DNA of 38,800 bases from a virus, in IMG/VR virus record IMGVR_UViG_3300006920_000097, positions 1 through 38,800 of that record; one strand, 5' to 3'. The position numbers and the translations under genes were made by a program. The notes under the pieces are model-generated. The model did no database searches. It was not told the origin of the DNA and was given only the letters and a program-made list of their open reading frames with translations. Each line of letters opens with the position of its first letter. Position 1 is the first letter of the stretch. Shown here piece after piece: positions 7,697 through 38,770 of the stretch.

Positions 7697-8467
7697 ATGG
7701 AATATAACGACAGAGACATTGATGTACTCACTAGGACAATCCTTGGTGAAGCTGCAAGTGAAAGTGATGCTGGTCAAACTGCTGTTGCTCATGTTATTCG
7801 TAATAGAGCAGCTGATCCTAGATGGCCTGATACACTATCAGAAGTTGCGCTACAGCGTAAACAGTTTTCTGCATGGAATGAAGGTGTTGGTGGTAATACA
7901 CTAACAGATAAGTATAATCCCGGTGATCCTCAGTATGAGAGAGCTAAGGCTAATGCAATACGCGCATTATCATCTAATGAGGACATTACTGGTGGTGCTA
8001 CACACTACTATTCACCAGCAGGTATGAAGGCTCACAAGGATCGTGGTGAACAACAGAACACAGTACCTAAGTGGCTACAGCAAGAAGCTTCTCGTCGTGA
8101 TGGTAATAATGTTACATTAGGTGGACATGTATTTACAGGTCTACGTCAGGGTGCAGAGAAACCTCTGACAGAGACTTACTATGATCCTGATGGACAACCA
8201 GCGGTTCCACCTGTATCTGATGGTATACCACAGATGCAAGATGAACCAGACTATTCAATAGTTCCACCTATTACAGGTAATGAAATGATTGATGGTACCA
8301 TTGATAACGCAGCTGGAGCACTACTAAGCACTGGTGTTAATGCACTATTGGGCGGTAATAGATCAACACCCACTACACCAGCACCCCCACCACCGCCACC
8401 TATGATGAATATCCAAGGTTCCGGTCCGGTGATATTTAAAATTAAACGTAAGAAGGAGACTAAGTAA
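7697..8467 (+). CDS. SleB-type cell wall hydrolase (Hydrolase_2), virion-associated lysin or endolysin
   Basis: A 256-aa protein. Residues ~8-135 match the SleB/CwlJ hydrolase pattern: LTRTILGEA with the catalytic-type Glu18, then GQTAVAHVIRNRA, QRKQFSAWN and GATHYYSPAGM. Family members cut peptidoglycan glycan strands. The C-terminal ~100 residues are disordered and Pro-rich (TPAPPPPPPMMN), ending in a basic tail. There is no signal peptide. It lies inside the internal virion protein block, like gp16-type or separate tail lysozymes that open the wall during DNA entry. Because no other muralytic gene appears in the window, it might also serve as the endolysin with the upstream holin pair. It overlaps the next start by one base (TAATG). 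Confidence 0.75.
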   Translation: MEYNDRDIDVLTRTILGEAASESDAGQTAVAHVIRNRAADPRWPDTLSEVALQRKQFSAWNEGVGGNTLTDKYNPGDPQYERAKANAIRALSSNEDITGGATHYYSPAGMKAHKDRGEQQNTVPKWLQQEASRRDGNNVTLGGHVFTGLRQGAEKPLTETYYDPDGQPAVPPVSDGIPQMQDEPDYSIVPPITGNEMIDGTIDNAAGALLSTGVNALLGGNRSTPTTPAPPPPPPMMNIQGSGPVIFKIKRKKETK

Positions 8468-10284
8468 TGGAAAGATTCCTACAATCTATTGGTAACCTAT
8501 TTAAGGACAACCAACAGATACCAATGAACCAATCACCTTCTATCGTTAAACTGGCAGAGGGAGAGGATATTATAACAAACAACCCCTCTAGTGGAGTTAT
8601 GAGTACAGGACCACAAGGTGGCCTATTCGGAAACAACCCTATCGGTGGAGTTATGAGTGAAGGACCTTCAGGTGGAATGTTTGGAGAACCTGCTGTAAAC
8701 GCTGGGCAACACCCTAATCCGTATATGCCACAACCTCTTGCACAACCAGTGCCAGCTATTGAGACAGTACAAGATAGTTCTGTAGTAGTACCACCTGTAT
8801 TCGAGGAATCTAGTATTCCGCCTGAACAGAATGAGACTATTAAGGATCTCGGTCAGAGTGAAGAGTATAAGAAGTATATGACTGGTCTTGGTGATGGTCA
8901 AGTTACAATCGCTGACTATGAAGAAGTCTACGGCGGTTATGAAGATAAAAGAACATATGATCCAAAGAAACCCGCATTTAAAGAGAATGGTGAAAGGGTA
9001 TTCTATGGGACAGAAGAAGATAAAGCTAAAGGCCGTAATCGTGTTCGTAGGAAGAAAGCACTATTAGAAGGGAAACCAATAATTGACACTGATATTGATC
9101 CGAGTACTATTACGCCAGAAGAAGCTTCGGAAAGCGAAAAGGTAGCTACAGAACTGACAACTCCGCAAGGACCAGATCAAGTTCCATACGTAGACACTGA
9201 GGGTGCAGTTAAAACACCTAATGGTGGTGAAGTTAATGTAACAGCATCAGACGTTAACAAGGTGAAATCAGAAGATCCATCTGGATGGGCTAAGGCTATG
9301 TCTTGGGCTAATCGTACATTTGGTATCACTGGACAAGACCTTAATCGTTTTGCACTTTTGTATGTAGGTTCTCGTATTGCTGGTTATGACCATAAAGGAT
9401 CCATGAGTTGGAGTTTTGGTACTGCTGCAGAGGGACTAGTTAACCGTGAGAGTATCACAAATGGACTAGCTGGTCAGGGAAAGTACACACCCGCCTCAGT
9501 CGAAGAATATCGGAAGACAGGTGACGTTTCTAAGCTTAAGGCTGTTGATGATCCTAAGAAAGGTATCAAATACGATAGGACTATCCGTAAATACAAGAAA
9601 GGTACTACAACTATTGTACACGAGGCAACTCTGCCCAACGGATCTAAGACTTATGTAGATCTAGCTGGTAAAGAGTATACTGGTGATGTTGTTGATCCTG
9701 ATGATGGAGAGACTCGTACTGAACAACGTGAGACTTCTACTAAGCAGACAGCAAAGATTATGGACCAACATCTTGTCAGACAAGATAAGGATAATCCGTA
9801 TTTCATTGGATCCACTGCTGAAGATGCATCAGTAGTCGAAGACCGACTTGATTCATTCCGAAGAGAGCATGGTGTAGATATAGATTCAGGATTATCGGCA
9901 CGTATTGTTGGTAATGCTTCACGACAAGCTGAACGTTGGGCAGCTGCAACTGGTGGTAAGGTTGAGTCCTTGGCTCCATTTATTGATGCACAGCTTATCT
10001 ATATGGATTCCAACAATGGCTGGTCACAACAGCTTCGTAGTGGTGGTAAGGAACTAAATCCTGACCAGATCTTCAAGCTAAACGATAAGGTACTAAGGTT
10101 CGCGATGAGCGCACCCGGATTCGATCCGAGTACAGTAGATAAAGGAGCTATGCTTAATACATTCATGCAGTATGCATGGGATGAATATGAGAAGCTTCCA
10201 ACTGATAAGAAGAATCAGTTTAATAGTAGGGATGGTTTTTACACCTTCCTAAATACAGAACTCGGTACATCCGTAGAGAAATAG
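8467..10284 (+). CDS. Internal virion protein (gp15-like position), 605 aa
   Basis: The first ~130 residues are Pro/Gly-rich, with a repeated unit GVMSxGPxGGxFG at ~38-75. They continue into a charged, probably flexible region with many Glu, Lys and Asp. From ~275 the protein becomes helical and more ordered (WAKAMSWANRTFGITGQDLNRFALLYVGSR), continuing to the end. I see no catalytic motif and no transmembrane helix. It is the third largest protein of a contiguous ejection-type block and sits where T7 has gp15. The family is not recognised from sequence. Inference: a structural internal virion protein. The N-terminal repeats may be a flexible tether or packing segment. Confidence 0.5.
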   Translation: MERFLQSIGNLFKDNQQIPMNQSPSIVKLAEGEDIITNNPSSGVMSTGPQGGLFGNNPIGGVMSEGPSGGMFGEPAVNAGQHPNPYMPQPLAQPVPAIETVQDSSVVVPPVFEESSIPPEQNETIKDLGQSEEYKKYMTGLGDGQVTIADYEEVYGGYEDKRTYDPKKPAFKENGERVFYGTEEDKAKGRNRVRRKKALLEGKPIIDTDIDPSTITPEEASESEKVATELTTPQGPDQVPYVDTEGAVKTPNGGEVNVTASDVNKVKSEDPSGWAKAMSWANRTFGITGQDLNRFALLYVGSRIAGYDHKGSMSWSFGTAAEGLVNRESITNGLAGQGKYTPASVEEYRKTGDVSKLKAVDDPKKGIKYDRTIRKYKKGTTTIVHEATLPNGSKTYVDLAGKEYTGDVVDPDDGETRTEQRETSTKQTAKIMDQHLVRQDKDNPYFIGSTAEDASVVEDRLDSFRREHGVDIDSGLSARIVGNASRQAERWAAATGGKVESLAPFIDAQLIYMDSNNGWSQQLRSGGKELNPDQIFKLNDKVLRFAMSAPGFDPSTVDKGAMLNTFMQYAWDEYEKLPTDKKNQFNSRDGFYTFLNTELGTSVEK

Positions 10285-10294
10285 GAGATATAGA

Positions 10295-13200
10295 ATGGAC
10301 TCCGTCCTAGACCCAAATAAATTCGTCGAAAAGACGTTCGATACCACTGCAGGTGAAGGTAATCACTTCATTGATGGTGATACCGTTCGTACTAAGGACG
10401 GAGAATCTATCCGTATATCAAACATTAACACTCCAGAAGTCGCTCATACGGACGACTACATCAGCGGAGATAAAAGCCATAAAGCTGGCAGTGCATATCA
10501 CAAAGAAGTATCTCGACTATCTAGAGAGAATGGATTTACAGAGATTCTACGTACAGGGCAGAAAGATGTCTATGGACGTTCAATCGGTGATATGTACAAC
10601 CCAGATACTGGTGAGCGTATGTCTTACTTCCTAGCTAAGGAAGGGATAGTGGCTCCATCCATATGGGCAGATAAAGGCTCAATTGACCAATCGGTCATTG
10701 GACACTCACAGAGGTACGCAGGTGCTGAACGTGACGAATCTACTCAGGAAGCTTTCGATGTAATATCAGAAGCATCTAAGGATGATGAAGGACAATTAAA
10801 TTTCAAAACTCTGGCTCTTAACGAGCGTGAGTATGATGAGGATATTCATGCTGGTGTGTCACTACGCCAACTTGATAGGACAATCGACAACAAAGCACTA
10901 AAACCACTTAGTACTTCCTTTGACACTGCACTTCTCGGTATGCGTTCAGGCTTTAACGGTATGCGCCAAGCGATTGGTTATGCTACTGGTAATGAGGCAA
11001 TGGAAACTAAAGGTAGGATTGGTGTATCTGAAGCCAATTCTGATATTGAAGATATGCCACAGGTACTCGTCGACTATAAAGATGTAGGAAGTATTTCTGA
11101 TGGATTCTCTTATCTGGCAAACAACGCAATCATGTCGACACCTTATATGGCCAACACAATTGCCTCTGCTGCAGCGGGTGCTGCGGCTGGTGCTGTCGCT
11201 GGCTCTATTGTCCCTGTTGGTGGTACCATCGTTGGTGCTGTCGTCGGTGGTACGGTTGGTCTTGCATCGCCTACAGCTATATATGCTGGTCAGGTGTATA
11301 ACTCACAAGATGAAAAGAACTGGAAGGTTGCACTAGCATCTGGCTTTGGTCAAGGTGTACTAGATAGACTCGGTCTGAAAGGTTTGTCCTCAGGTGGTAA
11401 GACACTAAAAGGAGTTCTAAAGGAAGCAGAGGATACTCTCGTAACAAGAGGTATGACTCGTGTTGCTGCTAAGAAGAAACTAGCAGATGCTTCTAAGACA
11501 GAACTAATGGGATTGGTAGAAGATGCAGATAAACTTGTGGCTCAACAACTTAGTGCCAGAAATGTTACTCGTACTATCCTCAATCGTGCTGCTAAAGGTG
11601 CTGGGGCTGAGGCAGTTACTGAAGCTGCTCAGGAAACTCTTGCCCAAATGGGTGAGAATTACGACGAGGAGAACCTCGGGCTATTTGATCACTCTGGCTT
11701 CAACTCTGAGTTCATTGACCGCATCACGAATGCAGCAATTGCTGGGGGTACGCTTGGCGGCGCATTTGGTGGCGTTGGTGGCGTACGTGAAGTGGGTGGT
11801 TGGGCCGATGCTGCTTGGGAGCGGGGTAAACCTAGAACATCTTTTGAAGACACCTTAGCAAACCTAGAGAATCAAGATGAGACTATCGAAGAGCGTCTTG
11901 AACTTATGCAACGTGGTGTAGAAGATACAACTGACCTTGCACTACGTATTGACTCACACATCGAACAGAAAGGTGGTCGTGATCTTACAGAGAAGGCTAT
12001 AGACTCATTTAAGAACTTGCCTATGCTATGGCGCGGTATGATGCGCTCTCGTATGACTAAGGACTCTCTTGTTCGTAGTTCCTCTTATAGACAACTTGGT
12101 GCTATGTTTGGAGCTACCTTAGGTAAAATTAAGGCTGGACATAACTACGAAGACTCTATGCATTTTATTGCACAAAAGTATAGTAATATGATTGGTGGTA
12201 ATGAGAAAATCTGGTATAGAGGACTTGCTGGTTCTGATGCTAAGTCTAAAGCTAAATTCAACAATGTATTAGAAAGGGCTAATCTAGACTATAACAATTG
12301 GCATGAAGAGAACTGGAAGAAGCCTCCTGAACAACGTACTGAGTTTGACTGGTCAAGGTATGACAACATTAAGTCAGCAGGTTGGGACGAGAAGTATAGC
12401 AAAGATCCAAACAAGAATATGATTCAACAGTTCATGGAATCTCGTGAGAAAGCTGCTAACATAATGAGAGACAGACAGAACAACTGGTGGAATAAGAATG
12501 CTAAACCAGCAGTAGATCCTGAAACAGGTGAAGTTGTTATCCCTAAAAGGGAAGAGAAGATCAAGAAGCTACATAACTACTTCGGTAAGTTTAAGGCTAT
12601 GGATCGTACTAATATTGGTCAACGTCGTGGTAACTTTGAAACACTGCTCCGCTCGGAGTACGCTATGTCAAAGGAAGCTGCGAATGAACTAACAACTAAA
12701 ATCTTGGATGGTGAAGCACTAGATGGTATGGATCAGAGTGTATTTGATCTTATAACTAAGGGTGTTCCAGCAACACATGGTAAGAAGCGTACTATGGGAC
12801 TCTCACAGAACCCTAAGTTCAACGAGTTCTTCCATCAGGATGCATTCCATAACTTCCGGGAAGGCGCACGTATGGCCGCACGTTTCGAGACTTATCATAA
12901 GTTTGTCGGGCGTGATAATTGGAGAGTAGCTAAGTTACTCGATCAGGCTGCAAGAGAAGGCGTACCGAAGGAAGAAGTAGATCAGATGGCTTTGGCTATT
13001 CAGAGCTACTTGGAAGCTCAATCTGGTAACTACAAACGACCGCCTAAAGGATCGTATGGTGAACGTGCACTCGGTGTGCAACGTGGAGTATTGGTTTGGT
13101 CACTACTGACCTCTCTACCACTCTCCGCACTCTCATCGACTGTGGAGCTTGCGTTGGTTACACAAGGACTGACAAACAAACAGATCTTTAACAATATCCA

Positions 13201-14257
13201 ACCGTTCGCTCATGAGTTAGCAAGTGGTATGGGACGAGGACTACACCGTTGGGGCGCAGAAATGTGGACTGGCCGTGAGTACGTTCCAGAGGGAGAGCAT
13301 ATGCAAACCCTTACCAGACTTGGGTACCTTAATTGGGAAGCTGGTGCAGCCAGTACAGTTGGTGCTACAGAGATGTCTGACTGGTCCAAGAAACTAGTAG
13401 ATCGATTCTTCAAGTACAATATGCTTCAAGATTTGACAAACGCAACACGAGCTATGAAAGTAGCATCTTACACGGACTTCATGAGAGATCATGTTGAACG
13501 TATTAAGAATGAACCAAGCAATAGTGAAGCCTACAGGTTTTCATTTGAGCAGATAAGGAACCTAGGTGTACCTGTTGATCGTTTTATCTCGTTGATGGAT
13601 ATGGATGAAAACTCCATGACACAAGAGCAGAAAGATCAATATGCACAGTTTGAAGACCTTGCACAGTATACGTTTATCAACCAAACGGTTGCTCTACCCG
13701 GTGCTGCAAACAGACCTCTTCTATATCAGGATCCACGACTAGCACTGTTCACACAGTTCAATGGTTACGTATCTACATTCACGGCTAACCATCTTCCAAA
13801 GATGTGGTCTGAATATGTATCTCGTGGTAGACCTTCAATAAAATTCAATACATTCGCTATGATGGCGACAATGATCTTCTTAGGCTTTGCATCGCAATAT
13901 CTAAAAGATTGGTTGAAGTACGGGGAACCTTCTCCATACCTAGACACAAATGAGAAGCTTCGTCGTGCTGTTAACTCCTCTGGCCTTCTTGGTCAAGGTG
14001 AACGCGCACTGAACTTCATATGGCCAACGTTTGAGAAACAGAGCTCTTCCGCAATTGGGGCTGGGTTCGATATGATCACAGACGAGATGCCAGCTATGGG
14101 ACCAGTTAGACGACTGCTTAAGTCAGCAGATGCTGCCTACCAAGGTGACGTAGATATGGCTCAATACAATGCACTTCGTGCTGCACCTGTATTAGGTCCA
14201 ATGACTCATTTGACACAGAAACTATCTGGTGTTGAGTTTGAACATAACAAAAATTAA
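10295..14257 (+). CDS. Giant internal virion protein with N-terminal staphylococcal-nuclease-like domain
   Basis: A 1320-aa protein. Residues ~22-122 read as an SNase/thermonuclease (OB) domain. FIDGDTV supplies D27 and D29; SIRISNINTPE supplies R40, T46 and E48; DVYGRSIGDMY supplies R95; and ERMSYFLAKEGIVAP is the terminal segment. In S. aureus nuclease the ligands are D21, D40, T41, E43, R35 and R87; the D40 position is Asn (N45) here. Residues ~285-330 are a long Gly/Ala zipper (AAAGAAAGAVAGSIVPVGG...), with another at ~480-500 and hydrophobic segments at ~930-957 and ~1186-1207, suggesting membrane insertion after ejection. The rest is helical. It occupies the T7 gp16-like position, so the nuclease-like domain is probably injected into the host. 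Activity is not proven. Confidence 0.7.
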   Translation: MDSVLDPNKFVEKTFDTTAGEGNHFIDGDTVRTKDGESIRISNINTPEVAHTDDYISGDKSHKAGSAYHKEVSRLSRENGFTEILRTGQKDVYGRSIGDMYNPDTGERMSYFLAKEGIVAPSIWADKGSIDQSVIGHSQRYAGAERDESTQEAFDVISEASKDDEGQLNFKTLALNEREYDEDIHAGVSLRQLDRTIDNKALKPLSTSFDTALLGMRSGFNGMRQAIGYATGNEAMETKGRIGVSEANSDIEDMPQVLVDYKDVGSISDGFSYLANNAIMSTPYMANTIASAAAGAAAGAVAGSIVPVGGTIVGAVVGGTVGLASPTAIYAGQVYNSQDEKNWKVALASGFGQGVLDRLGLKGLSSGGKTLKGVLKEAEDTLVTRGMTRVAAKKKLADASKTELMGLVEDADKLVAQQLSARNVTRTILNRAAKGAGAEAVTEAAQETLAQMGENYDEENLGLFDHSGFNSEFIDRITNAAIAGGTLGGAFGGVGGVREVGGWADAAWERGKPRTSFEDTLANLENQDETIEERLELMQRGVEDTTDLALRIDSHIEQKGGRDLTEKAIDSFKNLPMLWRGMMRSRMTKDSLVRSSSYRQLGAMFGATLGKIKAGHNYEDSMHFIAQKYSNMIGGNEKIWYRGLAGSDAKSKAKFNNVLERANLDYNNWHEENWKKPPEQRTEFDWSRYDNIKSAGWDEKYSKDPNKNMIQQFMESREKAANIMRDRQNNWWNKNAKPAVDPETGEVVIPKREEKIKKLHNYFGKFKAMDRTNIGQRRGNFETLLRSEYAMSKEAANELTTKILDGEALDGMDQSVFDLITKGVPATHGKKRTMGLSQNPKFNEFFHQDAFHNFREGARMAARFETYHKFVGRDNWRVAKLLDQAAREGVPKEEVDQMALAIQSYLEAQSGNYKRPPKGSYGERALGVQRGVLVWSLLTSLPLSALSSTVELALVTQGLTNKQIFNNIQPFAHELASGMGRGLHRWGAEMWTGREYVPEGEHMQTLTRLGYLNWEAGAASTVGATEMSDWSKKLVDRFFKYNMLQDLTNATRAMKVASYTDFMRDHVERIKNEPSNSEAYRFSFEQIRNLGVPVDRFISLMDMDENSMTQEQKDQYAQFEDLAQYTFINQTVALPGAANRPLLYQDPRLALFTQFNGYVSTFTANHLPKMWSEYVSRGRPSIKFNTFAMMATMIFLGFASQYLKDWLKYGEPSPYLDTNEKLRRAVNSSGLLGQGERALNFIWPTFEKQSSSAIGAGFDMITDEMPAMGPVRRLLKSADAAYQGDVDMAQYNALRAAPVLGPMTHLTQKLSGVEFEHNKN

Positions 14258-14268
14258 GGAGATAGCTA

Positions 14269-17200
14269 ATGGCTAAGATAGGCGCTGGGTTAGATGCTCA
14301 GAAAATACAAAGCGGCGAAGCCACGCCAACACCTAGCGATACGCTAAACAATGTACTCCATAAAACCATCGGATCTCTTGCTGAGAAAGTTAACACTCAG
14401 GGAGAGATGGATGAGGCTGTTCCAACAGTCGATCCTAAAGTCTCTGGTTTTACGGCTGACGATGAACTACTACCTATTAGTGAACGTTGGAATCCAGCAC
14501 AATCTGGTGAACTTAATCCAACATTCGATGATTGGCAGCAGTCAGGTAATCAAGTTGAGGGAGCAGAACAACAATCGTTCGCTCCCCGCAACACACCTGT
14601 ACTTAGTTCTAGTCCACAATCACAACTTCTTGAACGAGCTAAACGTACTGCAAGTATGATGAACCCATCGGATAACACCCAAGGTAACATCTCATTTAAT
14701 ACTCATGCTGATTCAGCTTATCGCGATCAGTTCCTTGAGGCCAACCGTAAGGTAGGTATGGCTCTTGATGAAACTGAGAGGGATGCTGCTAAACGTGAAA
14801 GGTACAATCTTGTAAAAGAGATGGAAAATAAGGAGAACACAATTCTCCAGACTATGTCAGGTAAGTTAGATGCACTAACGGTCGATCCAAAGACTAACTT
14901 CTCTTATCCTGATCCACGTTTCCTTATTACAGCACAACTAGCAACTGAAAACGAGCTAGATATGATGTTCCTAGGTAACAACGACGAAGCTGAGGTGATC
15001 GAACCAACAGGTGAAGATAATAGGCCACTATTGTCAAAGGAACTTATCAACCCCACAGAGGGTGCAGAGAGAGTAGGACGTTCAATCGGTACTTGGTGGA
15101 ATGCTGAGAAGCAGGGAGCCACTACCGCTGATAAGATGACCTCTCAAGAGAATAAGGATTTGGGCGCACAACACCTATTGGCATATGCACAGGCTAATCC
15201 GCATATGGTTAAGGCAACTCGTGTACGTACAAACGAAAAGGGTGAATCTGATCCTAATGGAACTAAGACACCTTGGCGTTTCCAACTAACTCCAGAGGGT
15301 GCAGATATTCTAGAGCAGAACCGTGAGTTCCGTCAACAGGCACTAGGGATCAATATTGGTCCTGAGAACTCACCTAAACGTTCTGGACTTCAGGGAGCTA
15401 AGGAAGTACTTCGTCCTGCTTATCGTAAACGTAATAAAATTGGATCAGATGATCCTTCTTATGCATCATTGTCTCAGTTTGAAGAGGCTATTGGTAACCA
15501 GAACGGTGTTGCACACGTAGTTGATGATCGCCGTATGCGTATTGCAGTTGCAATGTTGTTCCCTTCTCTATTTGGAAAGATTGGAGATAGGAATGATCGA
15601 TTTGGAGATGCATTCGGACTAGGACGTAAGTCTTTTGATACTGTTAAGAAACAAAAACAAGAACTAGACGGTATGGAAGAGGTTCAAGCCCTTGAAGAAG
15701 CTATTCAGATTACCCGTAGTAAGAAGGCTGATGCTGCTAGAGACATGAAAACTCTTGCAATGTATCGTAAAAGTCCAAACTACTTGACATTTGCTATGCA
15801 ACCACTGACTGGTCGTATGATGGCTCAACAAACTGAGTTCAATCCAACTAGAAAGAAGATTGTTCGTTTTGTTACAAGGTCCAAACACCCAGCTACTATC
15901 TCTAATCGTAGTGGTAGGATGTATAACAACTACATGAATATCATGGCACTATCCTTTGGTGCAGACGCTTCACTAGAAAAAGGCCGTATGGCTGATCTTA
16001 TGGAGAATAAGGATAAGTATGTGGGTTGGGGTAAGCTTCTAGAAGACACATTGAATCAAGTATTCCCTCAAAATGAGTTCGAACAACTCTCTGAGGCTGT
16101 TGCAAAAGGTTCAACTGTTCCAAACATGGAAGGTAAGTTTATGCAGTTCCAGCAGAAGCTGGCTGTAGATCCTTCTCTACTTGAGTTCATTGTGAGTAAG
16201 GGTGAAGATGGTATGATGGCTATTGATGCTCTCATCGACTTCAAGAACTTTAATGAAGCTATGGATAAAGGGCAGAACCATGTGACATTTATTAATGCTT
16301 ATATTGATGGTAAGACTAATGGTATCGCTAACCAAGGTATGATGTTAGGTAATCCTGAGATTGCTGCTCGTGTTGGCGCTCTTAGACCTGATGATTCTAC
16401 TGAGGCAGTAGGTGGTGGTGACCTTCGTGATGCTATGGTATCTCTGATTGACTCACGTCTTGAAGAAATGATCCCTGTATTCAACATGGATGAGATTAAG
16501 GGTAAGACAGAACTCATTCGTGACGTTCTACGATCAATCGGATCCTTCCGTGAGATCAATAAAACCGTTACTATGGTATTCCCGTATGGTAAAGAAGTCG
16601 CAGGACTCAAAGGTGAAATTAAGAAACACCTACCAGAACTACAAGTTAGCGATCCTACATTCGCTGGCAACCTTGAGATACTTAATGATGCTGGTATCAC
16701 TACTGATAAAGTGATTGATGCTGCTCACGACAACGTTGTGTATGCTCTGTTCGAACTATTCGGCACAGATACGTTTAATACACGAGGCGTTATGCGTTCA
16801 GTTGGCTTCATGCATGCACTAGGAGACAAGCTGTTCTCACTCAGAGGTCCATCAGGACACCGTATTTTGCTTGGAGACAATCGAAGTATTGGTGAGGAAG
16901 CTAAACAATCCAAAGTACGCATGCGATCTGATAAAGCTGATGCCACACTTATCCTACAAGACTCACCACAGTATGCATCAAGTGCCGCTAAGAAGGACGG
17001 TGAGAGTGCAGGGTATGTTCGTGGACGTGCAGCTGTTATTCCAACACAGTCAATCGATGCTGCAACTGTAGTTCGTACTGCCACTGGTAATTCTTGGGAT
17101 AAACTAAAGGAAAGTCACCCTGCAAAGGATCCATATTTCTTCCAGATCTATGATGCTTATAAGGTTGACGTCCATGGTTACGATACTATTGTTGATGAGG

Positions 17201-17823
17201 TTAATACTAACTTCTTAGACATTACTACTCGTGATTGGAACTTTGTTTCAGAGGCTCTAAAAGAGTATCGTGCACTCAAGAAAGATATGAAAACGATGCT
17301 AGACTCAGCTCCTGATAAAGAGTGGAGCCTTAAGGATGGTAAATTTGATTATCTGTATGATCTTATGAATCCTGAACATGGCCAAGCTGCTAAGGCGTTT
17401 ATTAAAGCTGCTGATCCTATTGATCCTAGTCCTAGAGTTAAATATCTTGATGGTAAGATTCTAGAAACTAAATCAGGTGAAGCTGCACAAGAACCGTCAG
17501 CACGTATTAAGGGTTATGATGAGTACATCAAGATCCGTACTCAACGTTTCCAGAATGCACTTCTACAGGCGTTTAATGTATCAACTACTCGCGATAAGAA
17601 TATTAGTGCTTCTTCGTTCATGAATCCTAATACTGCTCCTAAGTTAATTACTTCTAGGCAGGTTTCAAAGATTCTTGATACTATCGAAGGGAACATTAAA
17701 CTCGAAGAGAGGCTTTCTAAACTCAGTTCGAAAACTAACTTGGCGCGTGGGAAACTTCGCGGCGAGATCGAGTCACAGTTCAAACGAACTGGTGTAGGTG
17801 TGTTGCAATTCTGGGCGCACTAA
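14269..17823 (+). CDS. Putative virion-packaged single-subunit RNA polymerase (N4 vRNAP-like)
   Basis: A 1184-aa protein at the end of the ejection block. Conserved motifs of T7/N4-type RNA polymerases occur in order. A PLTGR segment (512-516) followed by TEFNPTRKKIVRFV resembles T7 DWRGR...FNP. Motif A is INAYIDGKTNGIANQGMML (D680, G681, G685, I686), like T7 FDGSCSGIQHFSAML. Motif B R761xxxK765x7Y773G774 exactly fits Rx3Kx7YG. PTQSIDAATVVRT (925-937) matches T7 HSQDGSHLRKT. Motif C is FQIYDAYKVD with D962; the usual His is Tyr961. The first ~350 residues are poorly conserved and may be a virion-packaging region. Size is close to the N4 mini-vRNAP core. The gene ends 69 bases before a strong terminator. 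Inference: injected with DNA to transcribe early genes. Confidence 0.8.
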   Translation: MAKIGAGLDAQKIQSGEATPTPSDTLNNVLHKTIGSLAEKVNTQGEMDEAVPTVDPKVSGFTADDELLPISERWNPAQSGELNPTFDDWQQSGNQVEGAEQQSFAPRNTPVLSSSPQSQLLERAKRTASMMNPSDNTQGNISFNTHADSAYRDQFLEANRKVGMALDETERDAAKRERYNLVKEMENKENTILQTMSGKLDALTVDPKTNFSYPDPRFLITAQLATENELDMMFLGNNDEAEVIEPTGEDNRPLLSKELINPTEGAERVGRSIGTWWNAEKQGATTADKMTSQENKDLGAQHLLAYAQANPHMVKATRVRTNEKGESDPNGTKTPWRFQLTPEGADILEQNREFRQQALGINIGPENSPKRSGLQGAKEVLRPAYRKRNKIGSDDPSYASLSQFEEAIGNQNGVAHVVDDRRMRIAVAMLFPSLFGKIGDRNDRFGDAFGLGRKSFDTVKKQKQELDGMEEVQALEEAIQITRSKKADAARDMKTLAMYRKSPNYLTFAMQPLTGRMMAQQTEFNPTRKKIVRFVTRSKHPATISNRSGRMYNNYMNIMALSFGADASLEKGRMADLMENKDKYVGWGKLLEDTLNQVFPQNEFEQLSEAVAKGSTVPNMEGKFMQFQQKLAVDPSLLEFIVSKGEDGMMAIDALIDFKNFNEAMDKGQNHVTFINAYIDGKTNGIANQGMMLGNPEIAARVGALRPDDSTEAVGGGDLRDAMVSLIDSRLEEMIPVFNMDEIKGKTELIRDVLRSIGSFREINKTVTMVFPYGKEVAGLKGEIKKHLPELQVSDPTFAGNLEILNDAGITTDKVIDAAHDNVVYALFELFGTDTFNTRGVMRSVGFMHALGDKLFSLRGPSGHRILLGDNRSIGEEAKQSKVRMRSDKADATLILQDSPQYASSAAKKDGESAGYVRGRAAVIPTQSIDAATVVRTATGNSWDKLKESHPAKDPYFFQIYDAYKVDVHGYDTIVDEVNTNFLDITTRDWNFVSEALKEYRALKKDMKTMLDSAPDKEWSLKDGKFDYLYDLMNPEHGQAAKAFIKAADPIDPSPRVKYLDGKILETKSGEAAQEPSARIKGYDEYIKIRTQRFQNALLQAFNVSTTRDKNISASSFMNPNTAPKLITSRQVSKILDTIEGNIKLEERLSKLSSKTNLARGKLRGEIESQFKRTGVGVLQFWAH

Positions 17824-19088: not shown

Positions 19089-21467
19089 TTAGGCAAAGAA
19101 GTAATCGGATTCTCTAACAGATGAGATTGAGAGATTTCCTCTTGCTGGTTGTTCAACTGTGAGTCCTTCTTTGTTTGATAAGAGAGTTTCTTCAATCTCG
19201 TCATAGAAATTATCCTTTTCATATATTGCGATAAATACCTCTTTAGTTACAAATAACAAGTCATCAATGTCTGAGGCGTGTGTTGCAAATGCGTCGTGTA
19301 CTGCTGCGAATGATCTTTCCCAGTTATCAATAATGATAGCCATATGCGCTGCGTCCATAGAGTGTACAAAGTTAGGACTGATCCCACTCATGTAACCCTT
19401 TACGTTAGGCATTTCAGTTCTTTCGTAAGCTACGTGGTTGATACGTCCAACCCCGTTTATAGTACCCTTACATTTTATTGACCGTTGTATAAAGTTCTCA
19501 TAGATAATCTTGAATCCAGATGGAGATTCCCACCTGATTTTATTTGATCCATTACCTTCAACTAGTCTAGATTCGTATGTAGATTGTTCGTTTACTAGTT
19601 TAGATAGTTTCTCAAGTTCTTCATCAGTCTTATCTTTCTTATACTTCAGTTCTTTCAGTTCTTTCTTAAGTGTCTTATAAGCCTTAGCTGCGACCTTACC
19701 ATCCTTAAAGATAGTGTATGAACCAATCTCGTATGCAGCAAGACGCTGAAGGAACGACATTGTTTCTAATGGTCCCGGACAGACCTTATTGATCGCTGTT
19801 ATCAGATTGTGTGCTAACTTGTTACAATCTTCTACTGTTATACCATACTTAGTTGTGAAGTCTTCCTGATAACAATCAGCGTACATATTAGTAGCCATCG
19901 TTTTCTCACCAGCACTATATGCTCGTGTCATAGATCCACGTTTACTAATACCTTTTCTAATATGCTTCATTGGCATAGCCTTAGTTTCGAACCAATCAGG
20001 TATTAGTTTTATCAGAGACTTTGCTGTTGATACATAGAAGTCTTTCTGAATCTTAGATGGTATAAGACCTACTAGTGATCCTGTTTTAGAATCCTTTGAC
20101 ATCGCACCTAAGTGCTGCCATCCGTTGTTACTCCCATCAACCTGAATAGGTAGTCTTGATAGGTGTCCATCTGGATCACTAAGGTACTTAACCCATTCAA
20201 CACAACAAGCATAAAAGATAACTGGTTTCTCTGCATCCATAGGTATGTCTTGTTTATCAACATAATCTATGATCTCATCCAGATTGTTCTCTGTCCAGTT
20301 AGCCCTATCATTCAGTGTCATCTTATCCACAGAGATTGTATCTAGGCCTTCTTCTTCTAGGTACTCTTTGTAATCTTCTTCACACCAGTCTGGTAGTTCA
20401 TCTATTGAATACGACTTATTGAATGAACTCGCTGTATGAATTGCAAGCCAATACCTTCCTCTGTCAGTTATCTTCTTTCCATTAGAGAACTCTATTAGTC
20501 CTCTGGCTGCATCTGTTCCTTGGAAGTTAAAGAAGCTTTCAACATAGTAGAATCGTCCACGATAGTCTAATTCTAGTGTTTGATAGAACTCTGATTCTAG
20601 TTTTAGTATTTCAGCTTTTTGTATTGTGTATGTAAATGCAGTCTTCTTACTTTGATTCTTTAGAGCTATTAGTTTCTTATTCCAAAGCTCTGCTTCTTTT
20701 ACATACTTCTTTTTCTTCGATTCAACATCAGCACTAGGTTTACCCTTTGCTCTATTTTCTGCCATTCTCCAAGCATAATACGTATCATCCATACGTTTTT
20801 TATTACCTTCAGATGGAATTTCTATTCTCCCCTCTTTGATAAACTTATCCTTGTTTTTGTTTATAACTTCTAGAACGTCTAGGTTGATTCTTAGTGGTAT
20901 AGCTTGAAGTTTAGTTACTGCTGATATATGCTGTGATTCTTTTAGATCTTCCCATTCTTCTTTTGTAAACTTATCTCTCTTCAGGCAAGACCTTGATGCA
21001 GTCTTAGGGCTATCAAATGTTCCTCGTAAGTCTTTCCTAGACCTTACTAGTGGATACTCAGATAACTCTGACCATCTAGATTCAAGGTGTACTACATAAG
21101 GAGCCTCTCGGCTATGCTCTGAAAATGCAGGATCTCTGTATACGTTTATATATGATAGTGTGAATAAGGCTTCGATGAATAGATCACCTAGCCTTACTCT
21201 TTGATCAAATGGGGCTTCGTTATCCCCCATCATAGAGAGAACACGTTGCCCAATAGAAGTTGAGATTTGTGTTAGCTTAGCCATCCCCGGTATATCACTC
21301 CGGTTCATACAAGACATAATAGATTGAATACAAGCATTTATGTAATCATCTAGATCATTGTCAGACTTATCAAATCTCAGTATAGTTGCACCAGTCCCAC
21401 CAGATCTTCCTGTGTCTGGACCGATTCTATCTATTTTCTTTTGGATATAATCTTTTATGTCCTTCAT
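19089..21467 (-). CDS. T7-type single-subunit DNA-dependent RNA polymerase
   Basis: A 792-aa protein (T7 gp1 is 883). Motifs in order: DYRGR at 301-305 (T/DxxGR); motif A VDGSNNGWQHLGAMSKD with D444; motif B region KRGSMTRAYS with K509 and Y517; SPNFVHSMDAAHM at 697-709; motif C VHDAFATHASD with D725; and the C-terminus ESDYFFA, like the T7 FAFA end. In motif B the residue at the T7 R627 position is Lys505, with Arg504 beside it, and the usual Gly after Tyr is Ser. AAGGA precedes ATG 21467. The N-terminal ~290 residues are divergent, as usual for the promoter-binding domain. It should transcribe middle and late genes. It is distinct from the putative virion polymerase at 14269-17823. Confidence 0.95.
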   Translation of the reverse strand: MKDIKDYIQKKIDRIGPDTGRSGGTGATILRFDKSDNDLDDYINACIQSIMSCMNRSDIPGMAKLTQISTSIGQRVLSMMGDNEAPFDQRVRLGDLFIEALFTLSYINVYRDPAFSEHSREAPYVVHLESRWSELSEYPLVRSRKDLRGTFDSPKTASRSCLKRDKFTKEEWEDLKESQHISAVTKLQAIPLRINLDVLEVINKNKDKFIKEGRIEIPSEGNKKRMDDTYYAWRMAENRAKGKPSADVESKKKKYVKEAELWNKKLIALKNQSKKTAFTYTIQKAEILKLESEFYQTLELDYRGRFYYVESFFNFQGTDAARGLIEFSNGKKITDRGRYWLAIHTASSFNKSYSIDELPDWCEEDYKEYLEEEGLDTISVDKMTLNDRANWTENNLDEIIDYVDKQDIPMDAEKPVIFYACCVEWVKYLSDPDGHLSRLPIQVDGSNNGWQHLGAMSKDSKTGSLVGLIPSKIQKDFYVSTAKSLIKLIPDWFETKAMPMKHIRKGISKRGSMTRAYSAGEKTMATNMYADCYQEDFTTKYGITVEDCNKLAHNLITAINKVCPGPLETMSFLQRLAAYEIGSYTIFKDGKVAAKAYKTLKKELKELKYKKDKTDEELEKLSKLVNEQSTYESRLVEGNGSNKIRWESPSGFKIIYENFIQRSIKCKGTINGVGRINHVAYERTEMPNVKGYMSGISPNFVHSMDAAHMAIIIDNWERSFAAVHDAFATHASDIDDLLFVTKEVFIAIYEKDNFYDEIEETLLSNKEGLTVEQPARGNLSISSVRESDYFFA

Positions 21468-27108: not shown

Positions 27109-29025
27109 CTAGTTAATGTCGACAATCTCACATGATCCACCGGAACATGCGAATGTCTGTGATCCAGATGTATTGTCTTCAAGTTCAAAATCACTAAGTT
27201 GTGACCAGTCAATGTTTTTAGGCATTGCCTCTTGTAGCTCTTCATACTCTGATTTTGTTATCTCTTGGTAAGGTGCTTGTTGGTAGACATGATCGTCATA
27301 CGGCAAGAACGAGATACCTGAGATCTCATCGAAGTTTTTGTATACCCATGCACCAACTTCCAACCATTCGTGATCTCTCACATTGATAGTTACTGATGGT
27401 TTATGTTCACACCAACCACGTTGGAACTTTAGCCAGAACTCTAGTTGTTCTAATGCTGTCCAATCTTTGGCTTTAACTGCTCCCTCTGGAGCCTTCATCG
27501 GGAATGAGAATACTGTCGTTGCGTCAGGTTTCATAACGCATGGTTCATTAGGAACTCCCATCCATTTCATGAACTCTGTTAGTGGATCTTTATTATCACC
27601 CCTTACTGTGCGGATGTAATAATCTGCGTATCTTGCGTGGATTCCTGAGGAAGTATCTGTTAGCTGAGATACCGTTCCACTTGGCTTAACGCAGGTGATC
27701 GCAGCTGATTCCGGTATACCAAGTGCCTTGGCAAATTCTGAGTTGACCTCAACAGTGAAAGCTCTGAGTTCGTCAAGGGTTTCCTCTGAACACTCTCTGA
27801 GGAATTCTGAATCCATGATTCCGGTGATTGAGACACCGAGCAATGATTCTTCTTTTGTGTTGGTATGCCAAATATCTCTAAGGTACGGGAAGTTAGTGAG
27901 GGACGATTGAATCGTTCCAAGTACCGTAGCAACCCAGATTTTATCTTTAAGTGTTTCATGTGTATCTTCCTGTCTTGCAATTACTTCTGTCAGGTTACAG
28001 AATTGGTATGGTCTTAGAATAATCTCTGAACATGGGTTTGTCCCAAATTGGATTAATTCTTTTGATCCTAGTAGACTAGATTTACGTCGTCCGTATTTGT
28101 CTACTTGTTTCTGTGAAGCAACACGATTAAAGATACCCCTTTCACCTGACTTTGATTCCATCAACGCTAACCATTCTCGGATGAATGATTCTGTGTCTGG
28201 CTTTTCTGTGTATGCAATACTATTGTTTGCTAATGCTCGTTGTTTCTCATTATCGTACCAAGCTCCCATCTTTGCAGTTCGCATCCGTTGGTCGGACAGG
28301 TTACTAAGTGAGATCATTGCTGATCGTCTTACACCACCAACTACAACTACTTCACCAATCTTACACATGATGTCATGGCACTCTAGTGAGTTCAACTTTC
28401 GTCCTTGTGCATTCTTAAATGTTTGCAACATGAAATCAAACAGCTCTAATAGTGGTGCTGGTCCAGATGCTCGTCCACCAAATGTCTTTAGTCGTGCACC
28501 TGCTGGTCTTACATTATCTATATTAGTTGTTGGAATTAATCCATCATATAATGATGATATAAACTTCCTTAGACTATCTGCCCAACCTTCTTTTGAGTCA
28601 CCTACATCGATTATTACTTCACTGAAGTTTAGTGTTGGTACTTCTGGTAGTTTATTTACATCTTGTCGTTCTACTGAGAATCCTACCCCTGTACCACATA
28701 GTAGGATGAACATAGCTTCATCAAATGATCTCATATCATCTACGGGTAGGTATGCACAATTAAATGCGCATGTATTGTCACGTTCTAGTGCTGGTCCTGC
28801 AGTCATCATCGCTCGCATAGAAGGCATAACTTCCATCGCTTTGATTGCTTTCCTCAGCTTCATGATAACTTCTTCCGAGTTCTTCATTTTAGATTTAGAC
28901 ATTGCTGGTACAACAACACTATCTACGTAACGATCTACAGTTTCCTCGTAAGATTCTCTTCGGTTTTCTTCTTCCAGCCATCGTGCATAGCGGCTGGTTG
29001 CTATAAATTTTTGATAGTCGTTCAT
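27109..29025 (-). CDS. nrdJ: Class II (adenosylcobalamin-dependent) ribonucleotide reductase
   Basis: A 638-aa monomeric NrdJ type. Substrate-site residues: NTCAFNCAYLPVDD (Cys86), TNPCSEIIL (N330, thiyl-radical Cys332, E334) and QFCNLTEV (Cys343). The C-terminal swinging redox pair is CSGGSC (Cys627, Cys632). FILLCGTGVGFSVER and RPAGARLKTFGGRASGP are typical of the family. It converts ribonucleotides to deoxyribonucleotides using B12, with no separate small subunit, so the host must supply cobalamin. AAGGGAAAT precedes the ATG. The glutaredoxin gene is immediately upstream in the transcript (9 bases between) and probably reduces the C-terminal cysteines. Somewhat shorter than the Lactobacillus enzyme (~740 aa). 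Confidence 0.95.
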   Translation of the reverse strand: MNDYQKFIATSRYARWLEEENRRESYEETVDRYVDSVVVPAMSKSKMKNSEEVIMKLRKAIKAMEVMPSMRAMMTAGPALERDNTCAFNCAYLPVDDMRSFDEAMFILLCGTGVGFSVERQDVNKLPEVPTLNFSEVIIDVGDSKEGWADSLRKFISSLYDGLIPTTNIDNVRPAGARLKTFGGRASGPAPLLELFDFMLQTFKNAQGRKLNSLECHDIMCKIGEVVVVGGVRRSAMISLSNLSDQRMRTAKMGAWYDNEKQRALANNSIAYTEKPDTESFIREWLALMESKSGERGIFNRVASQKQVDKYGRRKSSLLGSKELIQFGTNPCSEIILRPYQFCNLTEVIARQEDTHETLKDKIWVATVLGTIQSSLTNFPYLRDIWHTNTKEESLLGVSITGIMDSEFLRECSEETLDELRAFTVEVNSEFAKALGIPESAAITCVKPSGTVSQLTDTSSGIHARYADYYIRTVRGDNKDPLTEFMKWMGVPNEPCVMKPDATTVFSFPMKAPEGAVKAKDWTALEQLEFWLKFQRGWCEHKPSVTINVRDHEWLEVGAWVYKNFDEISGISFLPYDDHVYQQAPYQEITKSEYEELQEAMPKNIDWSQLSDFELEDNTSGSQTFACSGGSCEIVDIN

Positions 29026-35146: not shown

Positions 35147-36382
35147 TTATTTGAGTCGATTACAGATTTCTTTAATAACCCAATCATCCAAGGTATATCG
35201 CGTGATAGCGTTTGCTAGTGTTAGTGGAACATCATCATTATTAATTGTATCAGCTAGTGATTTAATTGTTACATCAACACCATAATTATTAGCTACAACA
35301 AAGTCACCTAGGTCTTCTTCATCCTCTTGATCGATGTAAGCCACATGTGTATAGTATCCATCAGCGAATCCATCTAGATAAGTATACCATGCTTCATCTG
35401 AACTGAAGTCGGATCCAGATAGTTGATAGTCTGTATCTGATAGATTATGGGTAGCTGCACATTTACCTTCTTCAACTCCTTCAATATAAGCATTTTCACA
35501 TTCAGATTCAAAGTCTTCATCATCATCATCGTAGTTAGAGTACCAACCATCTTCGATATCTGAATAGTCAATATCACCTTTCTGTTCCCAAGTGATATAA
35601 TCTGAACTATCGTAACTTACATATGACAATCCGGGGAATGCATGTTTACATTGATCCTGTGGGATTTCCCCTACGATCAAATATCCTTCTGCACGACCTT
35701 TAGCGTTGTTATAGTCAGTTGGAATAGATACTACATGTGCTGGGTTAATCTCTAGGATTACAACCTTACCTGAACCACCATAGTATGAACCTAGGTAATC
35801 CCATGAACAGAAGTGAAGTCCACTTGAACATGTACGTGTACGATCATCATCTACTTTATTACGATCCATACTTGCAAATGTTCCGATACCATTATGGAAA
35901 TGTGTTCCATCTGGATTTTTGTGATAAGATGTATAATCATCGTTTACCTTTTTATAGGCTAGGAAATTACCACGTTCTGTGATTGGCATATTTGCATTCT
36001 CCAACCAACCATACAGTTCATCTACTGCATGTTTAGCCGGATTTTGTTTTAGGTTCTCTAGGAACAGCGCCCAAGGTCGAATGTCCATGCCTTGTTGTAG
36101 CATTTCAATCATTCGGTTAGCAAGGAAACCATTTACTGTCTCACCCTTATAAGTTACTACGCCATTATCTACTTTGACATTACCAAAGCTTGCTAGTGCA
36201 CGTCGTACTGCCTTACTTGAGTCCAACAGATCACGAACCTCTTGTGGTGTGATTGTTGAAATATTATTGTAGATCTCATCAAACTTAGGATGAGTATCAT
36301 CTACTTCTGTAGGAATACCTCCAAGGAATACTGTTAGTTGTGATTTTCCTTGTACGGTATTAAAAATGTATGGAATTTGCAT
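35147..36382 (-). CDS. rIIB: rIIB-like protein
   Basis: A 411-aa protein. The C-terminal half shows rIIB signature segments: WALFLENLKQNP...AVDELYGWLENANMPI (~103-135), then GNFLAYKKVNDDYTSYH, MDRNKVDDDRTRTCSSGLHF, CSWDYLGSYYG and VVSIPTDYNNAKGRAEGYLI. T4 rIIB, membrane-associated with rIIA, is needed to grow on lambda lysogens, so rIIAB acts against a host or prophage defence. The protein has an acidic region (~275-330) after the rIIB domain. AGAGGAAATA precedes the ATG. The pair is ordered rIIA-rIIB as in T4. Confidence 0.85.
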   Translation of the reverse strand: MQIPYIFNTVQGKSQLTVFLGGIPTEVDDTHPKFDEIYNNISTITPQEVRDLLDSSKAVRRALASFGNVKVDNGVVTYKGETVNGFLANRMIEMLQQGMDIRPWALFLENLKQNPAKHAVDELYGWLENANMPITERGNFLAYKKVNDDYTSYHKNPDGTHFHNGIGTFASMDRNKVDDDRTRTCSSGLHFCSWDYLGSYYGGSGKVVILEINPAHVVSIPTDYNNAKGRAEGYLIVGEIPQDQCKHAFPGLSYVSYDSSDYITWEQKGDIDYSDIEDGWYSNYDDDDEDFESECENAYIEGVEEGKCAATHNLSDTDYQLSGSDFSSDEAWYTYLDGFADGYYTHVAYIDQEDEEDLGDFVVANNYGVDVTIKSLADTINNDDVPLTLANAITRYTLDDWVIKEICNRLK

Positions 36383-36394
36383 TATTTCCTCTTT

Positions 36395-38770
36395 CTATGT
36401 ATACTGTTTATCTACAGCATGGTGCTTAATAGCACTGATTAACTCATCATCGATGTATAAGCTTATTTGATCTATAAGATATTTAAGTACTGGATCTTTT
36501 TGTACCATACCTAGATATATACTATCTGCTACTGGTTTAGGATACATCTTTACAGCTTGATCTATTTCCTTATCTAGTATTTTGTCATATCTTTTTGGAA
36601 GATTATATTCTGAACTGTAACTATTGGATGATCCCTTACTGATCTTCTCTTTATCTTTAACCAGTCTTTGTTTTAAGTCTTTGAATGATACATTATATTG
36701 TATTTGTAATCTAAGGAACTTCTTAGCATATTTAAGTTCCTCTGAATCATCTTCTCTCCAAGTTGACTCTACATACTTCTTTTTCCAATCCTTATTAGAA
36801 GCCATCCATTCTTCTTTCATCCACTCAACCCCATCTTTAAAGTATAATGGATTGTCTTTGTAGAATTTGATAGTTGAACCGTTTATTACATACAACTCTT
36901 TACCACCACCTACCCATGAATAGATAAATGATTCCATATCTTGTTGAATAAATGGATCTAGAAGGTCATTCATATCTTTTTCATTCAGGTAGAATTTATT
37001 ATTATTAAAGAAGATTACAGGTAGTTTTTTATTATCCTTAGTGAAGTCATTAGACTTGAAGTCTACTATCTCATATGTATTTGGGTCATATGAATATGAA
37101 TACCTAGCACCTGATAGTGTCCTTAGCTTCTTCTCGTCTGAACCGTTAGCTGCTAATGTACTAGTTGATGAACCTTTCTTCGGCATCTTAAGTTCTGAAC
37201 ATTTATGTAGATAGACTACCTTAGTTTTATCAGTGTGGAAGATTGTATCTAAGAACTTATCTGCATCACTCATATTATGCAACTTAATCCATAGGAACCC
37301 AGATGAATATGATCCATTAGATACTACTTTATTCTTCCAGTAGTCTCTCATTAATGCATTTTTATTCTTATCTCCATATTCACTTTCGATATCAATAAGT
37401 ATTTGAATATCGTTAACTTTGTGAACCATCGATTTATGTTTAAATTCTGAATTTTTACTATCCATTGATGGAAATTTAAACTGAGATTTTATTTCACCAA
37501 ACTTGTTACGGTAATCACCTTCCTTAATATATCTAAGTTCACCTAATACAGTACTTCCTGTAACTAGACCGTTAGTTACATTATTGGTGTAGTATGAATT
37601 ATGAATGTAATTTTGATTAACGAATTCTCCAACTTTACCATTTTCTTCACCAAATAGAATATTCTCTTTAATTTCCTGATCATTCCACTTACGTGCAGTT
37701 AGTCCTAGGTTAGTCTCAATGTTTGTTAAACCTGATGACTGTGCTTTAGACCTGAATAGACGTGCTTCCTTCATTGTTTTGAATTTTGCATACTCTTCGT
37801 CAAGTTTATCTTCAATCTCAGATACTACTACTTCACATTGTTTTACAATATTCTTACATGTAATATCATTGTAAGCTAGTTCTTCTCTACTTGTTGTCAT
37901 TGTCAAATCACCAATTGGGAATCTGATCAAAGTATCAGTATTTGATAGTAAAGCTTTTATTTTTCGATTAACACTTGAATTACTCATAAATGTTTGTAGC
38001 GTTTGGTTATTGATATTAATCGGATAAGCCACAGATCCTTGTATTGCAAAGGGTTTCCCTGCTCCGTAGTATGCAGACCTTTTAGCATCGATTGATGTAT
38101 ATAGTTTCCACGTATCTCCACTTAGTACCAAGTTTTCATCATTTAGCGGCTTATAAGATGGTGAGCTACGTGTGATCTTAGGTTGTGGATCGAATCCTCG
38201 TAGTTGTTGTGATGCTTCTCTATTAAAAGCCTCAATGTCTTCAGTCTTTACAGCGTATGAAATACGTACACCTTCCCGACCTGCGCTTGGTACTTCTGTG
38301 ATAAGGGACACCATAGGTTGTCCATTATTACCAATATAACAAGAGTAGTCTCGTTTCTTTCCATCTTTCCAGCAAGTAACTGAGAAGATATTAGTATACG
38401 CGAATGCACTTTTTGAACCTAGGCCTAGACAGCCTGTTTCGTTATTTGTATCCCGCTTCGTTGATTCACCCAATACCGCAAAGATATTGAATACATCATC
38501 ATGAGATAGTGAACAGCCAAAGTCCCTTACTTCAAAGAACGCTTTATCCGTAGTTGGAAGACCAACTTCGAATGGCTCTGATAGGTTTCCTTTTCGTGCA
38601 TGTCCATCACGAGCGTTTGTTGTGTATTCCCTTAGACCTGCTCCAATTTTATTAGAGTAGATACCGTTAATAAGGTTATCAAACATCATTCCATCTAGGT
38701 TCGCTCTGAAAGTTGTAGTATCTTTCATACCGCTAGATTCGACTTTTACATTTTTAGCTTCGAGAAGCAT
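36395..38770 (-). CDS. rIIA: rIIA-like GHKL-ATPase protein
   Basis: A 791-aa protein (T4 rIIA is 725). The N-terminal ~200 residues are a GHKL/HATPase_c domain: N box REYTTNARDGH (47-57), G1-like VRDFGCSLS (81-89, Asp83) and G2 ETGCLGLGSKSAFAY (111-125). The rest is a long helical/beta region, with Lys/Asn-rich parts near the C-terminus. In T4, rIIA with rIIB counters exclusion by lambda Rex and other prophage systems. The neighbouring rIIB gene is 12 bases downstream. AAGAAAGGATTG precedes the ATG, so the start is well supported. Confidence 0.85.
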   Translation of the reverse strand: MLLEAKNVKVESSGMKDTTTFRANLDGMMFDNLINGIYSNKIGAGLREYTTNARDGHARKGNLSEPFEVGLPTTDKAFFEVRDFGCSLSHDDVFNIFAVLGESTKRDTNNETGCLGLGSKSAFAYTNIFSVTCWKDGKKRDYSCYIGNNGQPMVSLITEVPSAGREGVRISYAVKTEDIEAFNREASQQLRGFDPQPKITRSSPSYKPLNDENLVLSGDTWKLYTSIDAKRSAYYGAGKPFAIQGSVAYPININNQTLQTFMSNSSVNRKIKALLSNTDTLIRFPIGDLTMTTSREELAYNDITCKNIVKQCEVVVSEIEDKLDEEYAKFKTMKEARLFRSKAQSSGLTNIETNLGLTARKWNDQEIKENILFGEENGKVGEFVNQNYIHNSYYTNNVTNGLVTGSTVLGELRYIKEGDYRNKFGEIKSQFKFPSMDSKNSEFKHKSMVHKVNDIQILIDIESEYGDKNKNALMRDYWKNKVVSNGSYSSGFLWIKLHNMSDADKFLDTIFHTDKTKVVYLHKCSELKMPKKGSSTSTLAANGSDEKKLRTLSGARYSYSYDPNTYEIVDFKSNDFTKDNKKLPVIFFNNNKFYLNEKDMNDLLDPFIQQDMESFIYSWVGGGKELYVINGSTIKFYKDNPLYFKDGVEWMKEEWMASNKDWKKKYVESTWREDDSEELKYAKKFLRLQIQYNVSFKDLKQRLVKDKEKISKGSSNSYSSEYNLPKRYDKILDKEIDQAVKMYPKPVADSIYLGMVQKDPVLKYLIDQISLYIDDELISAIKHHAVDKQYT

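Follow-up and report, generated by a model that had tools for sequence, protein, structure and literature searches.

The enzymes known to stand at the N terminus of podovirus ejection proteins have the cell wall as their substrate. In phage T7, the N-terminal enzyme of gp16 acts in the periplasm while the C-terminal part of the protein crosses the inner membrane, and the review that describes this does not contain the word nuclease (PMC8954989). A survey of polyvalent proteins likewise mentions no staphylococcal nuclease (SNase) domain, and the ParB-type DNases described there were neither accompanied nor displaced by other DNase domains (PMC5512222). The catalytic elements of SNase itself are R35, R87 and E43 together with Ca2+ (PMC8436206). 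The Roseobacter phage CRP-7, which carries a homologue of the protein studied here, is a podovirus, and its paper mentions no nuclease (PMC6918029). In targeted searches of the open-access literature, no internal virion protein with an SNase had been described.

The window, i.e. the whole stretch of DNA that was analysed, comprises 38,800 bases and is identical with its source record, an IMG/VR virus contig. On its plus strand it contained an ORF (10295..14257) with an ATG start codon and a product of 1320 aa, which was assigned from the ORF, the CRP-7 homologue and phrog_6958 as an ejection (internal virion)-type protein with an N-terminal SNase domain.

The N-terminal SNase domain

The SNase core was located at residues 22-122 (10358..10660, plus strand) on the basis of Pfam, a profile search against PDB, AF2, Foldseek and the family alignment, and the fold ran past this core to about residue 140. 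The original prediction, made from the letters alone, had read an S. aureus nuclease core into the same residues, and phrog_452, the family profile and AF2 with Foldseek agreed with that reading, as did Pfam, just above its cut-off, on the N-terminal stretch. The translation (...FIDGDTVRTKDGESIRISNINTPEVAH...KDVYGRSIGDM...) showed D27, D29, T30, R40, N45, T46, P47, E48, Y93, G94 and R95 at exactly the predicted positions. R40, E48 and R95 correspond to the catalytic R35, E43 and R87 of SNase, and D27 and D29 to the metal-site residues D19 and D21, while the Asp40 metal ligand is absent and N45 stands at its position.

Pfam SNase (PF00565) scored 21.6 bits (E 3e-4, cut-off 21) on the N-terminal stretch and 19 bits on the whole protein, and phrog_452 "endonuclease" matched with an E value of 1.7e-5. 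A single-sequence phmmer search of the domain against PDB gave no match, so the SNase match only emerges with a family profile or from the fold. When IMG/VR was scanned with the domain of this single protein, there was no match either, and a six-frame PF00565 search of the window's own record returned 0 matches although hmmscan sees the domain, the six-frame look being the less sensitive one. The profile of 49 relatives matched S. aureus nuclease over its full length (E~1e-6), the top 60 matches in PDB were all SNases, and the positions of D19, D21, R35, D40, E43 and R87 were in register between the family profile and the PDB chains.

The AF2 model of residues 1-162, built with 48 sequences, had a pLDDT of 85.7 and a pTM of 0.80. 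Such a structure prediction had been proposed as a check in the original prediction, and the model bore out the SNase OB-fold: the top 50 Foldseek matches in PDB were all SNases, with a probability of 1.00 and E values from 3e-5 to 2e-4. The TM-scores (target length) against PDB SNases reached up to 0.61, and values near 0.5-0.6 are due to loops that differ widely and to the additional N- and C-terminal helices. The best match among viral models (BFVD) was a 1368-aa protein, the same length as CRP-7 gp34, while the other confident BFVD matches were mostly short nuclease proteins. A chance local match to SNase was ruled out by the family profile and the fold.

Relatives of the domain and the Asp40 position

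Relatives were collected by scanning IMG/VR with an alignment of the C-terminal third only, which gave 192 loci, and the best 80 of the 192 were kept. Together with the earlier seeds, and after removal of identical proteins, these gave 72 ORFs, none of them open at a contig start or end. The SNase domain was present by HMM in 69 of the 72, in one continuous frame with the virion part. In two of the three exceptions (L087 and L094), the domain lay in an upstream ORF and was split off by a frame break, either a sequencing error or a real split, and in the third (L091) the ORF began 132 bases from the contig end. Further relatives were obtained with a degenerate DNA pattern and a polymerase scan. 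Two proteins from the pattern scan, L020 and L024, were rejected as ejection proteins and are free-standing SNases. Such free-standing SNases in other phages, including those among the BFVD matches, would fit an ordinary accessory nuclease without a role at entry, for example one that is released by cleavage ahead of assembly and then serves inside the infected cell. The continuous frame in 69 of the 72 ORFs argues against this explanation, as do three relatives that place the SNase between a lysozyme and the virion part, and it is considered very improbable.

Among annotated phages, only the CRP-7 homologue was detectable starting from the window protein. CRP-7 gp34 (MK613349) is 1368 aa long, and its SNase part was 39% identical to that of the window protein (E 8e-14); the Gly-rich segment matched too, and the C-terminal 400 aa were 24% identical. 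The CRP-7 SNase domain was unseen by Pfam, yet it kept all of D, D, R, D, E and R. The fusion was thus found in cultured phages as well, in CRP-7 and in the Aeromonas phage phiA008, whose 2036-aa protein scored 29.9 bits for SNase in Pfam. Only 7 of 48 family domains reached an E value of 0.01 with Pfam SNase. The SNase-type domain at the front of this giant, presumably injected protein is carried by short-tailed phages that make up a large and mostly marine family.

The alignment set consisted of 50 non-redundant sequences with less than 90% identity over the first 200 residues. D27, D29, R40, E48, R95 and G106 were the only invariant columns, while T30, G36, G65 and G80 were nearly invariant. 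Five of the loci (L017, L021, L027, L028 and L032) were picked up by a pattern requiring YGR-like DNA, either solely or in addition to another search, and the large majority of rows were not. The conserved YGR as an artefact of that DNA pattern was ruled out, as the C-terminal scan did not use this region.

The Asp40 position was different. Among the same 50 sequences it was occupied by D in 25, S in 10, E in 7, N in 6, and R and T in 1 each, and a tree of the C-terminal 480 residues, which is independent of the SNase domain, required at least 12 changes there, compared with 0 changes in the five catalytic columns. In 80 cellular SNases sampled from GTDB genomes, the same position (X) was D in 68, N in 11 and A in 1, i.e. 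Asn in about 14% of a sample conditioned on the motif DGDT..RxxG[VIM]X[TA]PE and one DNA pattern. The survey of Asn at this position for which the original prediction had called found it in 11 of 80 sampled cellular enzymes. The changed metal ligand that it had reported stood in so far as Asn45 does occupy the Asp40 position, but it was not peculiar to the window protein, the position being variable across the family. Changes at D40 lower, but are not known to abolish, SNase activity. Since the position varies in the family and Asn is natural in cellular SNases, the changed ligand is no sign of a dead enzyme; Asn45 as the mark of one was rejected, D40 being the sole variable ligand and Asn being common in cellular SNases. 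From the alignments, Asn45 is a natural family variant and not a lesion peculiar to the window phage. The D40 ligand is no defining feature of the SNase family as a whole, and Asn45 is not disqualifying.

The loss of the Asp40 metal ligand in half of the family speaks against an active nuclease, as does the low share of domains (the 7 of 48) that Pfam SNase recognises. This loss would suit a domain that no longer cuts and whose OB-fold grips the DNA by its first end inside the ejection channel, with the D, R, E and R residues clamping phosphate. Such a grip would also accord with the position of the domain within a protein that presumably touches the incoming DNA, and next to packaged DNA an enzyme that is restrained or inactive would pose less danger. 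However, the equivalents of R35, R87 and E43 were kept in 50 of 50 sequences although the SNase domains share only about 20-30% identity, pure binding has no need of E43, and Asn at D40 is frequent among cellular SNases in which the rest of the site is intact. A gripping domain therefore seems unlikely.

The virion-type scaffold and neighbouring genes

The C-terminal region of the window protein (residues 872-1213; 12908..13933, plus strand) is common to virion proteins without an SNase domain. phrog_6958 "virion structural protein" matched residues 875-1213 with an E value of 1.7e-28, while Pfam gave no match on the scaffold. With relatives as queries, the C-terminal part matched the Pseudomonas phages tf and PaP3, KPP25-like phages, Vibrio phage VPp1 and others. 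These homologues (tf gp51, PaP3 orf19, KPP25) are annotated as "phage particle", "constituent" or "structural", in line with the proposed fusion of the nuclease domain to a virion-type ejection protein. The SNase domain was looked for in the homologues of tf, JB8, PaP3, VPp1 and the KPP25-like CRPAP1904 and was absent. Because the scaffold occurs with SNase (phiA008) and without it (tf, PaP3 and others), the domain is a module that the virion protein has gained or lost at its N-terminal end. This distribution bears on a role of the SNase on the phage's own DNA at packaging or entry (end trimming or nicking, or freeing the genome from the internal core) instead of on host or rival DNA. The predicted site of the domain in the packed virion, close to the genome end at the portal vertex, would suit such a role, as would its constant presence in one phage clade, which resembles that of a structural part. 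On the other hand, tf, PaP3, JB8 and VPp1, with the same C-terminal part, do without the SNase, and the low sequence specificity of SNase-type enzymes also speaks against it, making an own-DNA role quite unlikely.

A hydrophobic Gly-zipper stretch at residues 288-329 (11156..11281, plus strand) was the first possible membrane segment in a Kyte-Doolittle scan. It lies C-terminal to the SNase domain, and by hydropathy it lies behind both enzymes in the relatives that carry a lysozyme and an SNase. In these relatives (L021, L028 and L032; 1529-1604 aa), a T4-type lysozyme immediately precedes the SNase and is followed by the ejection part in a single chain. Identities of 43-48% linked this lysozyme both to the N-terminal part of N4-like Vibrio virion RNA polymerases and to its counterpart in Alteromonas phages H4/4 and R8W. 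In the window, the cell-wall hydrolase (Hydrolase_2, PF07486; phrog_15649 endolysin, 2e-43) is encoded by a separate gene (7697..8467, plus strand), two genes upstream of the SNase ejection gene. A 605-aa protein is encoded directly upstream of the latter (8467..10284, plus strand) and is syntenic in relatives, with tblastn matches to L018, L010 and L015 and weaker ones to the CRP-7 group; it is a probable second ejection protein.

A different junction was observed in two Alteromonas phages, vB_AspP-H4/4 (L034 8468) and vB_AmeP_R8W (L243 3004), where the end of the lysozyme gene (...PVKK-stop) lies over a conserved slippery heptamer, A_AAA_AAG. A -1 shift there joins the lysozyme to the internal virion protein at its SNase-like domain, in which NTPE occurs. 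The junction is annotated as a frameshift in H4/4 and as separate genes in R8W.

Downstream of the SNase gene, the window encodes a predicted virion-type single-subunit RNA polymerase of 1184 aa (14269..17823, plus strand), assigned from phrog_414 (2.9e-5), motifs, AF2 and Foldseek. The window copy contained D680 (motif A), K765, M769, Y773 and G774 (motif B) and D962 (motif C), and D680-G-x-T-x-G, K765-x3-M-x3-Y773-G774 and D962 were invariant or nearly invariant in 42 aligned copies. Pfam gave no match on this protein, tblastn against phages gave none either, and the family profile against PDB sequences returned chance matches only. The copy in L042 matched phrog_414 RNA polymerase (7e-8), and that in L025 matched phrog_2206 virion RNA polymerase (1e-6). 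Sequence profiles thus barely see the neighbour, and the fold search settled its identity: the AF2 model (pLDDT 77.9) was nearest in PDB to the mitochondrial, T7 and N4 virion RNA polymerases (Foldseek, E 1e-16 to 1e-11). The neighbouring RNA polymerase named in the original prediction was recovered by these family-wide motifs A, B and C and by the predicted fold. In all 81 readable loci, a large ORF of 1144-1471 aa started -41 to +33 bases from the end of the SNase gene, and 3 more were cut by a contig end.

A second, T7-like RNA polymerase of non-virion type was found on the minus strand (19089..21467; phrog_414, 5e-104), and the window phage thus encodes two single-subunit RNA polymerases. 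The minus strand also carries a ribonucleotide reductase gene (27109-29025; phrog_367, 8e-176) and, in this podovirus-type genome, adjoining rIIA- and rIIB-like genes (35147-38770).

Proposed role and comparison with known systems

On balance, we favour an ejection protein whose N-terminal SNase domain (about 140 residues) is catalytically competent, is ejected with the genome and, probably in the periplasm, cuts exposed nucleic acid. This reading is supported by the fold, the five invariant catalytic residues, the family-wide fusion and the synteny with the polymerase. The protein would be packed in the capsid beside the virion-type RNA polymerase and, as a component of the machinery for DNA ejection, would leave together with the genome. 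The SNase would come to lie on the side of the ejection channel that faces the periplasm, where Ca2+ would be available (plentiful for a marine cell), and could there cut nucleic acid released from the host or the entering DNA of rival phages. This periplasmic placement would be the most likely one by analogy and the hydropathy plot, because both the domain and, in the relatives, the lysozyme precede the first membrane-like segment and because T7 gp16 offers an analogy; delivery to the cytoplasm could also occur. By analogy with N4, the neighbouring RNA polymerase may be injected with the DNA, and the phage probably delivers an active nuclease together with it at infection.

A Ca2+-dependent nuclease packed beside the phage's own genome needs restraint, which weighs against this reading. 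As guesses, the phage's own DNA might be spared by restraint in the packed conformation or by a low metal affinity from the relaxed sixth ligand. A bolder version is put forward tentatively and with some doubt, in which the whole widespread clade would inject an active nuclease and its own RNA polymerase before phage gene expression, destroying host or rival nucleic acid at entry, with the sixth ligand tuned to spare the packaged genome. A conserved nuclease at this N terminus would place a nucleic-acid-degrading tool among the phage's first molecules, and it raises the questions of what shields the virion's own DNA from the enzyme, whether the enzyme acts on the periplasmic or the cytoplasmic side of the inner membrane, and whether it serves takeover, rival exclusion or counter-defence. 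It also labels many genes, largely from marine metagenomes, that were so far unannotated because Pfam rarely sees the domain.

The window domain has the fold, the motif order and the residues D19, D21, R35, E43 and R87 in common with staphylococcal nuclease/thermonuclease (PF00565; PDB 1SNC). It differs in being fused to a 1320-aa virion-type protein, in its free Asp40 position (Asn) and in belonging to a family that Pfam mostly misses. Roseobacter phage CRP-7 gp34, annotated as hypothetical, is a full-length homologue with the SNase and a downstream RNA-polymerase-type gene as in the window, but it keeps Asp at position 40 where the window protein has Asn. The virion proteins of LUZ24, PaP3 and tf (phrog_6958; tf gp51, PaP3 orf19) have a homologous C-terminal third and are likewise encoded by a large gene of the internal virion module, but they measure about 930-1060 aa without an SNase, against 1320 aa with one in the window. 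In Alteromonas phage vB_AspP-H4/4 gp40 (and R8W), an SNase-like VVDGDT..RVGYINTPE..HFGR, also with Asn, follows a lysozyme and forms part of an internal virion protein; H4/4 belongs to the Autographiviridae, its domain is reached by an annotated -1 frameshift, and the searches made showed no similarity to the window protein in the rest of the protein.

The polyvalent proteins and the N4 virion RNA polymerase are multi-enzyme proteins co-injected with DNA, with RNA polymerase and lysozyme as partners, as here (PMC5512222). The N4 virion RNA polymerase has about 3500 aa and the window neighbour 1184 aa, with the single-subunit fold and motifs A, B and C common to both; being no giant chain, the neighbour is called virion-type by its context and is not filed as an N4 virion RNA polymerase. 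The likeness to T7 gp16 lies in the size, the position in the module, an N-terminal enzyme and membrane-like segments behind it, a likeness of layout. The N-terminal enzyme of T7 gp16 is a transglycosylase (peptidoglycan hydrolase), whereas that of the window protein has a nuclease fold, and what appears new here, judged from sequence, is an ejection protein with a nucleolytic N-terminal enzyme instead of, or besides, a peptidoglycan-cleaving one.
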